40,089 bases of DNA, from NCBI RefSeq assembly GCF_006543045.1, contig NZ_RBZW01000020.1:1-40089 (forward strand), written 5' to 3'. The position numbers and the translations under genes are program-made. The notes under the pieces are model-generated. The model did no database searches. It saw only the letters and a list, made by a program, of their open reading frames with translations, and had not been told where the DNA came from. The stretch's first letter is position 1; each line of letters opens with the position of its first letter. This document shows positions 3,837-25,479 of this stretch, one piece after another. The DNA comes from Salinadaptatus halalkaliphilus (GTDB lineage: Archaea > Halobacteriota > Halobacteria > Halobacteriales > Natrialbaceae).

Positions 3837-3974
3837 TGATGAAATTAAGCACAAGCTGTGGTTCGAGAGCGGGACGCCAAAATCGGGCGAAACCACCACC
3901 GAAGCTGACAGTCGGCTATTCCTTTTATGTCGCTGCTCGAGGTATACCGGGTAGCAGTGACGCGTGATACCAAG

Positions 3975-4730
3975 ATGAGTCGCCAGCGCACGGAGCCCGC
4001 CAGGTGGCGATTTGGGGGCGGATCCACACCGAGTACACCCCATATCGCGTCGATGACGTGGCGTCACGGACTGTTCGCACACTGGCCGGTCGATCCGGAG
4101 GAGGTACGGCCACACGTCCCCGATCAGCTGTCTATCGAGACAAAAGACGGCTCGGCGTGGATCAGTGTATTGCCGTTCGTCCTTACGAACGTGGGTATTC
4201 GTGGCACGCCGTCGATCCTTCGGACGGCCCTCGCAGAACTCAACGTTCGAACGTACGTCCGTCATCGCGGTGATCCGGGACTGTTCTTTTTGAGTATCGA
4301 TCTGGGAAATTCGTTGCTGTCGGCGCTCGTCGGGCGGGGCACGCGCCTGCCCGTCAGGAACGCCCGTATGCGCGTCGGTGCCGACGAGAGACAGGTCGTG
4401 TTCTCGAGTACGCGCTCGGCTATCGATCCGACGTTCGATCCGGCTGCCAGGTTTTCGGCGACGTACGGGCCGGCCGGTGAGGAGTTCGCGCCCGACCCGG
4501 GCACGCTCGAGTACTGGCTCACCGAACGGCGACGATTCTACGCACCGAGTGGGAAAAACGTCCTCACTGGCGAAATCGCACACGATCCCTGGCCGCTCCA
4601 GCCGGCGACCGCGACGATCCACGAGAATACGATGTTCGAAGCTAACGGCTTACCGACGCCGACAGACGATCCAATCGTCCACTACGCCGACGAGTTGTCA
4701 ATGACGGGGTCGATACCGCGTCGTATCTAA
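3975..4730 (+). CDS. DUF2071 (YqjF-like) family protein
   Basis: The sequence MTWRHGLFAHWPVDPEEVRP followed by VPDQLSIETKDGSAWISVLPF is the N-terminal signature of the DUF2071/YqjF family, whose fold resembles acetoacetate decarboxylase. The biochemical role is not established. I start at the ATG at 3975 (251 residues), because the in-frame ATG at 3927 sits on the likely TATA element (CTTTTATG, about 3919-3926). A later start at MTW (4053) would still keep the core. No signal peptide or membrane segment is visible. The gene is divergent from tfb and converges on the next gene with a 16-base gap. Confidence 0.85.
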   Translation: MSRQRTEPARWRFGGGSTPSTPHIASMTWRHGLFAHWPVDPEEVRPHVPDQLSIETKDGSAWISVLPFVLTNVGIRGTPSILRTALAELNVRTYVRHRGDPGLFFLSIDLGNSLLSALVGRGTRLPVRNARMRVGADERQVVFSSTRSAIDPTFDPAARFSATYGPAGEEFAPDPGTLEYWLTERRRFYAPSGKNVLTGEIAHDPWPLQPATATIHENTMFEANGLPTPTDDPIVHYADELSMTGSIPRRI

Positions 4731-22921: not shown

Positions 22922-24199
22922 CTACCGATCCGGCGAGCTCTCACTCGCGAGGGTCGCAAGAACCCCCTCGGTGTCTGCGGGGACCGGCTCCGGGTCGTTA
23001 CCGGCTGCGGCCGCCGCGTCGGGATCTTTGAGCAGGTGGCCGGTCGTCAGGCAGGCGACGCGCTCGTCGTCGTCGACGGTCCCTTCGGCGCGCAGTTTTC
23101 GCAGGCCGGCGACGGAGGCGGCCGAGGCCGGTTCGACGCCTATCCCCTCGCCCGCGAGGTCGCGCTGGGCGTCGGTGATCGCCTCGTCGGAGACGGCGAC
23201 GGCCGTGCCGCCGGTCTCGCGAATCCCGGGTAGCGCCTTCGGTGCGTTGACGGGGTTGCCGATGCGGATCGCGGTCGCCCGCGTCTCGACATCGTCCCAG
23301 CGACGAACCTCGTCGGCCCCGTTCTCGACCGCTTCGACCATCGGCGCTGCGCCCTCGGCCTGCACGCCGGTTAGCTTGGGAACGTCGTCCTCGTCGAGTT
23401 CACCGGCCTGGACGAGTTCGCGGAAGGCCTTGTATAGCGCCGCGGTGTTGCCGGCGTTGCCCACGGGGAGCACGATCCGATCCGGCACCGCATCGTAGTC
23501 CGCCAGAAAGCCCTCGAGAATCTCGAGGCCGATCGTCTTCTGGCCTTCGAGGCGGAACGGGTTGAGCGAGTTCAGCAGGTAGGCTTCGCCGGCTTCGGCG
23601 AGTTCTTGGACGATGTCGAGACAGGCGTCGAAGTTGCCGTCGACCTCGAGGATGCGCGCGCCATGCAAACTGGCTTGGGCGATTTTCCCTGCCGCGACCT
23701 TCCCCGCCGGCAGGAGCACGAGGGTCTCCATCCCGCCGCGGGAGCCGTAGGCCGCCAGCGCGGCGCTTGTGTTGCCCGTCGAGGCACAGGCCAGTCGGCC
23801 GACGCCGAGTTCCTTGGCGACGCCGACGCCGACGGTCATACCGCGATCCTTGAACGACCCCGTCGGGTTCATCCCCTCGTGTTTGATCCGCAGGGCTTCG
23901 ACACCGATATCGGCCTCGAGGCGGGGGACTTCGTATAGCGGCGTCGCCCCTTCCTGGGTGGTGACGCCATCGGCGAGGGGCAAGGCGTCGGCGTACCGCC
24001 AGACGCCCTGGCCCTCGAAGTCGTCGAACGTGGGGAGGTCGGCGTAGCGAACCTCGAGCAAGCCGCCACACTCGTCGCAGGTGTAGCGGACGGCGTCGAA
24101 GGGGGCGAACGTCTCGCCACACTCGATACACTCGAGCCAGACGCCGTCGTCCGCAACCGCCGGTATCGCGGGTCGGTCGGCCGAAAGACTGAGACTCAT
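22922..24199 (-). CDS. thrC: Threonine synthase
   Basis: This PLP enzyme converts O-phosphohomoserine to threonine. The 425-residue protein starts with a zinc ribbon (C24, C27, C41, C44 in CIECGE...CDECGG), typical of archaeal threonine synthases. PLP binds at K117 in NPTGSFKDRG. The ASTGNTSAALAAYGSRGG and LPVGNAGNTAALYKAF segments are the substrate and phosphate loops. The close of the protein is low-complexity. The frame extends upstream to 24301, but the ATG at 24199 begins the normal N-terminus. The 2'-amino-acid theme continues with the arg block just upstream, but a separate promoter (CTTTTTCT region, about 24222-24230) is likely. Confidence 0.95.
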   Translation of the reverse strand: MSLSLSADRPAIPAVADDGVWLECIECGETFAPFDAVRYTCDECGGLLEVRYADLPTFDDFEGQGVWRYADALPLADGVTTQEGATPLYEVPRLEADIGVEALRIKHEGMNPTGSFKDRGMTVGVGVAKELGVGRLACASTGNTSAALAAYGSRGGMETLVLLPAGKVAAGKIAQASLHGARILEVDGNFDACLDIVQELAEAGEAYLLNSLNPFRLEGQKTIGLEILEGFLADYDAVPDRIVLPVGNAGNTAALYKAFRELVQAGELDEDDVPKLTGVQAEGAAPMVEAVENGADEVRRWDDVETRATAIRIGNPVNAPKALPGIRETGGTAVAVSDEAITDAQRDLAGEGIGVEPASAASVAGLRKLRAEGTVDDDERVACLTTGHLLKDPDAAAAAGNDPEPVPADTEGVLATLASESSPDR

Positions 24200-24359
24200 T
24201 GTCGCTCGAAACGAGTGGGAGGGAGAAAAAGGACGTGATTCGGCGGTCGGCGGGGCGACCGCTCCCGCTTGGTTGCACCCGCGGTGCTCGAAGTCGCTCA
24301 CCGGCAGTCGATAAAAACGGACGCGATAGTCGGTGGTCGATACCCCAATCCCCTGTCGC

Positions 24360-24437
24360 TCACGCCAAATACAGTGCGATCAGTGCCGCCGGACCGAGCA
24401 GCATGATGACTGTCGCGAGCAGTACTCTGAACGACAT
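24360..24437 (-). CDS. 25-residue single-span membrane peptide
   Basis: The frame ATG-TCG-TTC-AGA... to TGA encodes 25 residues: MSFRVLLATVIMLLG, then PAALIALYLA. It is one hydrophobic helix with a single arginine near the N-terminus, so it should sit in the membrane. A TATA box (TTATTATA, 24463-24470) lies about 30 bases upstream of the ATG, exactly where a leaderless gene would have it. A 9-bp direct repeat lies just beyond. The gene stands alone between argF and thrC on the same strand. It is too short to identify by homology by eye; the promoter spacing and composition are the support. Confidence 0.65.
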   Translation of the reverse strand: MSFRVLLATVIMLLGPAALIALYLA

Positions 24438-24462
24438 CGGTTTTGATCACGACCACCCACAC

Positions 24463-24470
24463 TATAATAA
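24463..24470 (-). promoter_or_regulatory. TATA box of the 25-residue peptide gene
   Basis: TTATTATA on the minus strand, in a locally AT-rich island, is centred 29-30 bases before the ATG at 24437, predicting a leaderless transcript. No other minus-strand gene start could use it. Confidence 0.55.
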
Positions 24471-24489
24471 TTCCCTATCGTTTGCGGTA

Positions 24490-24519
24490 TAATGAACGTC
24501 TACTGGGAGTTAATGAACG
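24490..24519. repeat. Direct repeat TAATGAACG x2, 21-bp spacing
   Basis: TAATGAACG occurs at 24490-24498 and 24511-24519, exactly 21 bp (two helical turns) apart. It is 20 to 50 bp upstream of the TATA box of the 25-residue peptide gene. Two same-face sites in this position suggest an activator-binding region. It lies after the argF stop, so it cannot control argF. Confidence 0.5.
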
Positions 24520-24564
24520 GTTAGAGGTCGCTAATACCGGAATCAGAGACGGAAGACGGAGTAG

Positions 24565-25479
24565 CTACGCCTCGAGCAGCCAACTCAACAGCGCTTTCTG
24601 GGCGTGTAGTCGGTTCTCCGCCTGGTCGAAGACGACCGAGTGGTCGCTCTCGATGACATCGTCGGTGATCTCCTCGCCGCGGTGGGCGGGCAGACAGTGC
24701 ATGACCGACGCCTCGGGGGCGTGCTCGAGGAGATCCGAACAGACCTGAAAGCCCTCGAAGTCGGTCATGCGAACGTCGCGTTCGTCCTCTTGACCCATGC
24801 TGATCCAGACATCGGTGTAGATGATATCGGCGTCGGTGACCGCCTCGATCGGGTCCGTCGTGATCGTCGGATCGCCGCCGAGATCGCGGGCGCGCTCGAC
24901 GACCGCGTCGTCGATACCGTAGCCAGCCGGCGTCGCGACGGTGAGGTCGATATCTGTCAGTGCTGCCCCGACGGTAAAGGACTGTGCAACGTTGTTGCCG
25001 TCGCCGATCCAGGCCGCCGAAACGTCCTCGAAGCCGCCTTCCTGCTCGCGGATCGTCTGGAGGTCCGCGAGCGTCTGGCAGGGGTGGGCGTCGTCGGTCA
25101 GCCCGTTGACGATCGGTACCGAGGCGTACTCCGCGAGCACCTCGATGTTGTCGTGTTTGAACACCCGAGCCATCACTGCGTCGACGTACCGCGAGAGCGT
25201 TCTCGAGGTGTCTTTCAGCGGTTCGCCCCGCCCGAGCTGGATGTCGTCCTCGCCGAGGAAGACGGCGTGGCCGCCCAGTTGGGTCATCCCAGTTTCGAAG
25301 GAAACCCGGGTCCGGGTGCTCGGTTTCTGGAAGATCATCCCGAGCGTCTGGCCGGCGAGATCCGCGTGGTCGTCGCCGTTTTGTTGGGCGTCCTTGTACG
25401 TCTCGGCACGGTCGAGGACCGTCTGCAGTTCGGTCGCAGTGAGGTCGTCGATCTCGAGGAAGTGGTTCGTGTTCGTCAT
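24565..25479 (-). CDS. argF: Ornithine carbamoyltransferase
   Basis: This enzyme makes citrulline from ornithine and carbamoyl phosphate, the sixth arginine step. The 304-residue protein has the carbamoyl-phosphate motif STRTR at 54-58, HPCQ at 132-135 and the ornithine-side HCLPAHRG at 261-268. It is the last gene of the leftward arg block. Its ATG shares one base with the stop of lysK (TGATG), so the two are translationally coupled. A catabolic OTC is possible in haloarchaea that ferment arginine, but the surrounding biosynthetic genes favour the anabolic one. Confidence 0.97.
   Translation of the reverse strand: MTNTNHFLEIDDLTATELQTVLDRAETYKDAQQNGDDHADLAGQTLGMIFQKPSTRTRVSFETGMTQLGGHAVFLGEDDIQLGRGEPLKDTSRTLSRYVDAVMARVFKHDNIEVLAEYASVPIVNGLTDDAHPCQTLADLQTIREQEGGFEDVSAAWIGDGNNVAQSFTVGAALTDIDLTVATPAGYGIDDAVVERARDLGGDPTITTDPIEAVTDADIIYTDVWISMGQEDERDVRMTDFEGFQVCSDLLEHAPEASVMHCLPAHRGEEITDDVIESDHSVVFDQAENRLHAQKALLSWLLEA

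Follow-up and report, generated by a model that had tools for sequence, protein, structure and literature searches.

Small proteins built around a single hydrophobic helix are known as auxiliary subunits of larger membrane complexes in bacteria and organelles, as is the case for KdpF, CydX, AcrZ, MgtS and Psb30/Ycf12 of photosystem II. The peptide encoded at the locus described here resembles them in its size, in its single hydrophobic helix and in belonging to a class that often remains unannotated, but it has no homology to them and no partner gene adjoins it. Two of these systems could be evaluated directly in the genomes concerned, and both were rejected as models. A KdpF-like role is excluded by the absence of KdpA from the genome under study (G000), with only 3 of the 125 genomes of its family over the cut-off, and a CydX-like role by the lack of a Cyt_bd_oxida_I (CydA) match in G000 or in the carriers G021, G023 and G072. 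In archaea, MtrR of Methanosarcina mazei is reported to be a small protein, encoded by an sORF that had been overlooked, and to modulate a membrane enzyme of large size (PMC13370731); its lineage and its system differ from those of the peptide, and the likeness is one of description. The zinc-finger micro-proteins of Haloferax volcanii are also very small, conserved and haloarchaeal. A further likeness is that the gene sharing the peptide's upstream site, described below, encodes a DUF7563 zinc ribbon of 63 residues. However, the H. volcanii micro-proteins are reported to be cytoplasmic metal-binding domains (PMC6562870, PMC10716476), whereas the peptide is a predicted membrane helix of 25 residues devoid of cysteine.

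The argF-thrC interval

The DNA analysed, hereafter the window, is a stretch of 40,089 nucleotides from Salinadaptatus halalkaliphilus. The peptide gene lies between argF and thrC, and the features of the interval are the following:

24360..24437, minus strand: 25-codon peptide gene, ATG to TGA, encoding MSFRVLLATVIMLLGPAALIALYLA
24565..25479, minus strand: argF, ornithine carbamoyltransferase, upstream neighbour (TIGR00658, E 6.5e-123)
22922..24199, minus strand: thrC, threonine synthase, downstream neighbour (TIGR00260, E 2.3e-85)
24463..24470, minus strand: TATA box TTATTATA, at -33 to -26 from the peptide ATG, its core TTATA starting at -30
24476..24484, minus strand: proximal upstream element CAAACGATA, a diverged copy of the family motif TGAACNRTC, 8 bases 5' of the core TTATA
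24509..24524, minus strand: distal upstream element CTAACCGTTCATTAAC, a copy of the family AA-N8-TT block with one AA base out of register
24490-24498 and 24511-24519, minus strand: the two copies of the direct repeat CGTTCATTA
24226..24230, minus strand: T-run, probably a promoter box belonging to thrC itself, 31 bases 5' of its ATG

The original prediction, made from this DNA alone, had placed here an open reading frame (ORF) for a 25-residue single-helix peptide, preceded by a box 30 bases before its ATG and by a direct repeat, within an AT-rich promoter island. All of these elements are present: the reading frame is as described, the distance of 30 bases holds for the core TTATA, the repeat is real, and the GC content of 24438-24560 is 46% as against 64% in the whole window. 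The TTATTATA 8-mer occurs a single time in the 40-kb window, both strands counted. Nevertheless, chance often produces short ORFs, and the 6-kb stretch around the peptide gene is overlapped by 68 that have 24 residues or more; the case for this one therefore rests on comparison.

Distribution of the peptide gene

With the peptide as a query, orthologues were detected in related genera; a 12-sequence profile widened this result to the whole family, and a 46-sequence profile confirmed the outcome. The family consists of 125 Natrialbaceae-type genomes, the family name being based on the species titles of the loci, and the region downstream of argF was taken from most of these genomes for the reading of loci. 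Intact orthologues are found in 54 of the 125 genomes, representing 14 of 29 genera; this total includes G087, counted from a profile match with a score and a frame equal to those of G092, while the loci read amount to 53. Among the matches listed, carriers include loci titled Natrinema salsiterrestre and Natrialba asiatica, and loci titled Natronorubrum halalkaliphilum and Natronolimnohabitans sp. A-GB9 lack the gene. Outside the family, the peptide and profile searches of around 390 genomes of the order gave no full-length homologue, and the weak matches found there (best E 0.005 and 0.03) are partial stretches within long frames.

Each carrier genome has the gene once, at a single chromosomal locus, which lies 3' of argF in 48 of the 53 loci read and usually 5' of thrC. 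In G010, G121 and G122 argF is gone from the locus, yet the peptide gene is retained, which argues that its role is not tied to argF or to ornithine carbamoyltransferase. In these three genomes and in G012, the best ornithine carbamoyltransferase match is only about 50% identical to that of the window and is encoded at a distance from thrC, which suggests a replacement of argF in all four. The peptide gene is absent from around 55% of the family genomes, where argF and thrC are usually kept, often separated by no more than ~100 bases. Two copies are decaying, in G074 and G106, and both have lost the start codon and still end at codon 26. The copy of G074 (L057 near 310-390) has lost both the ATG and the G-P pair, and in that of G106 (L059, minus strand, near 1540-1618) ATC replaces ATG. 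Presence, decay and absence stand side by side within a single genus, g28. Given the absence from ~55% of genomes and the two decaying copies, the peptide is dispensable and is not required by a core complex. On the 3' side of argF in another locus, L125 (about 3877-4090), the final ~25 bases of argF (CAGAAGGCGCTGTTGAGTTGGTTGCT) recur some 160 bases further downstream, possibly as the remnant of an insertion or a duplication at the 3' end of argF.

A conserved frame, very probably translated, with its own predicted promoter

With its 25 codons, the gene is below the usual reporting size of gene callers, but its conservation is that of a gene. Each of the 53 intact loci read has ATG at the start of the frame and a stop at codon 26, with no indels; the table used for the codon analysis was limited to 25-residue ORFs, and a prior unrestricted scan (18-60 residues) had returned the 25-residue ORF as the best match in every intact locus. 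Across 26 disjoint closest pairs, dN/dS is 0.31 (bootstrap 95% CI 0.24-0.38) and the differences at codon positions 1, 2 and 3 number 125, 29 and 124, respectively. The shifted frames give dN/dS values of 0.52 and 3.9. The scarcity of second-position changes is attributable to the hydrophobic helix, which needs T at that position (codons for F, L, I, M and V), and 71 of the 94 replacements in residues 5-25 exchange one of AVLIMFW for another. Identity between close pairs is 86% over the ORF, falling to 45% just downstream and 34% further on. All loci have a second open forward frame as well; this is trivial, since the codons of that frame mostly end in T. The sequence evidence demonstrates purifying selection on a protein of exactly 25 residues, and it is almost certain that the ORF is a translated gene.

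Leaderless transcripts make up 72% of the protein-coding ones in Haloferax volcanii, and haloarchaea have TTWT as their TATA motif (PMC4983044). In 52 of the 53 peptide loci, the first base of a TTAT box lies between -36 and -29, compared with 1% at random positions, and such a TTWT-type box ~30 bases before the start codon would class the peptide gene among the leaderless ones. As for thrC, 60 of its 89 loci have a TTTTT starting at -31 or -30, including loci devoid of the peptide gene (e.g. L127). Since thrC has this T-run of its own, the gene most likely to be served by the TATA box at 24463-24470 is that of the peptide. The original prediction is thus borne out both in assigning the gene its own promoter and in one of its proposed checks, the conservation of the frame in relatives with synonymous changes. 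Only the outer copy of the direct repeat CGTTCATTA overlaps a conserved element, the distal one; the inner copy is not conserved, and relatives do not share the repeat. The conservation of frame, start, stop and promoter in the 53 loci read is what places this ORF above chance.

Features of the peptide

The consensus of the peptide is MSFRLLLATLLMLLGPAALxALxLx, in which P16 is invariant and G15 and L19 are nearly so. Residue 4 is R or K in all 46 distinct sequences, and there is no charge beyond residue 5, E5 being present in one sequence. Residues 5-25 form one predicted membrane-spanning helix with a mean Kyte-Doolittle value of 2.6. Taken with the protein-level selection, this helix would make the peptide a small single-pass membrane protein. 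According to the positive-inside rule, the positively charged end of such a helix stays cytoplasmic, and the peptide should therefore be N-in, with R4 on the cytoplasmic side. Residues 4, 8, 12, 15 and 19 share one helical face, but the conservation moment gives a weak signal for it, with permutation p values between 0.03 and 0.15 for different choices of stretch. No match to the peptide was found in Pfam, NCBIfam, PADLOC or the plasmid and phage collections. A profile search of the PDB gave weak matches only to Psb30/Ycf12 (E 0.027 and 1.2), which we read as a similarity of helix composition and not as homology. A search of the open-access literature found no paper describing the peptide or DUF7563, and, within that literature, the peptide can provisionally be considered undescribed.

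A bipartite upstream site shared with a second promoter

Conservation extends upstream of the peptide gene as the pattern AA-N8-TT-N27-TGAACNRTC-N8-TTAT, derived from a logo in which 42 non-redundant loci were anchored at the TATA box. In these 42 loci, the proximal block TGAACNRTC lies 9-17 bases, and the distal block AA-N8-TT about 45-56 bases, 5' of the TATA box. This bipartite site is an addition to the original prediction and is newly observed here. When at most one mismatch is allowed, the combined pattern matches in 102 of the 125 family genomes and the reversed pattern in 0; the reversed control of the near element gives 8 matches in 7 genomes against 32. The matches to the combined pattern correspond to the peptide promoters and to a second, orthologous promoter, which precedes a DUF7563 zinc-ribbon gene in most of the family and carries the bipartite site in the same register (L222 near 1460-1520; orthologous loci L235-L264). 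The block around this second promoter is composed of a PadR-like gene, a label that we use tentatively, an HTH_20 gene, the promoter itself, the gene for the DUF7563 zinc ribbon (63 residues) and that for a DUF7344 protein. The sharing of ~16 specified bases in one register by two unrelated loci suggests a common regulator, for which the HTH_20 gene, divergent from its DUF7563 neighbour, is by position a first candidate. In the window genome, the peptide site has diverged, with 4 mismatches to the family pattern, and the DUF7563 promoter has diverged too, so that the claim of a shared site is weaker for this genome. Both diverged promoters have A at -16, and their co-divergence is suggestive only. 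The distal element shows no dyad symmetry beyond column composition in the peptide set, and some single copies look palindromic. It is possible, if somewhat doubtful, that one regulator at both sites controls the peptide and the DUF7563 gene, which would constitute an undescribed Natrialbaceae regulon linking a cytoplasmic micro-protein to the adjustment of a membrane complex. Should the shared site be confirmed, it would offer a route to a Natrialbaceae regulator.

Proposed role and alternative explanations

What the locus offers is a small predicted membrane protein of archaea whose start is defined, together with a promoter and a control site upstream of it, and the DUF7563 gene is a candidate for co-regulation. 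We propose, with a confidence that is evenly balanced, that this regulated single-helix peptide packs against a larger membrane protein, its putative partner, and modulates it, much as the original prediction had suggested that it may act on a membrane complex. In such a mechanism, a candidate regulator bound at the two upstream sites would control the gene under some condition, and the transcript would start at the peptide ATG or within a few bases of it. The peptide would insert as one helix with R4 in the cytoplasm, and it would pack through the face bearing A8, M12, G15 and L19 and through the G-P kink, whereby the activity or the stability of the larger protein may be adjusted. MtrR, as reported, is a precedent for the modulation of an archaeal membrane complex by a small protein (PMC13370731).

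Four alternatives follow, from the most to the least probable: independent action of the peptide in the membrane, a toxin of type I, a small RNA, and a leader for thrC. The peptide might act alone, as a homo-oligomer or a lipid-packing helix altering membrane properties under stress without a dedicated partner. The dispensability of the gene and the high tolerance of hydrophobic-for-hydrophobic swaps are in line with this idea, and A8 and G15, both small and located on one face, would be favourable to self-association; the invariant P16, the near-invariant G15 and L19 and the R or K at residue 4 suggest a specific contact instead, and we hold this explanation to be unlikely, though the strongest of the four. 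In size and hydrophobicity, the peptide is similar to type I toxins of bacteria, for example Ibs and TisB, and patchy presence with decay would also fit a hydrophobic toxin of this type restrained by an antisense RNA. However, the downstream DNA, where an antisense promoter would be placed, is not conserved (45% then 34% in close pairs), the gene is single-copy, occupies one locus in the chromosome and has no match in plasmid and phage collections, and the conserved promoter architecture is of an activating type, all of which makes a toxin improbable.

The strong conservation of the promoter could also be that of a small RNA carrying an incidental ORF. This is very improbable in view of the codon-phased substitutions, the dN/dS of 0.31 and the start and stop conserved across 14 genera, and the two peptide loci scanned gave no Rfam match. 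The position 5' of thrC on the same strand could point to a leader peptide, or upstream ORF, exerting attenuation control of thrC, but the distance between the two genes varies from 111 to 1449 bases, sometimes with other genes between them, and thrC has its own T-rich box. As a run of threonine codons is also absent and the DNA 3' of the peptide gene is not conserved, we reject this reading, the least credible of the four.

Related promoter patterns elsewhere

Other matches to TGAACNRTC, at tatA, at an HTH gene and in a TFB/DUF7344 intergenic region, were considered as further members of a regulon, and membership was not established for them. Rfam and tRNA scans of the co-promoter loci returned nothing except the tRNA beside tatA. 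A similar conserved promoter, TGAACTGTCGATCGACTTTATA, with GTAAA blocks upstream, is present in L207, L209, L215 and L227 near 1500. It is flanked by a divergent TFB gene on one side and a DUF7344 gene on the other. No evident ORF follows it directly, and it possibly drives a non-coding RNA, to which Rfam has no match. At the transcript start of the DUF7563 promoter, a possible hairpin, GATAC..CCCG..CGGG..GTATC, can be discerned by eye only. Among the 392 genomes of the order, 62 contain the combined pattern with zero mismatches, and four of these 62 are not members of the family. In L292, L293 and L294 near 1500-1560, which represent three genomes of one genus of another family, the zero-mismatch pattern precedes the gene of a secreted surface-type protein with the motif APSVTFDDQ.T.G..VTVSNV.
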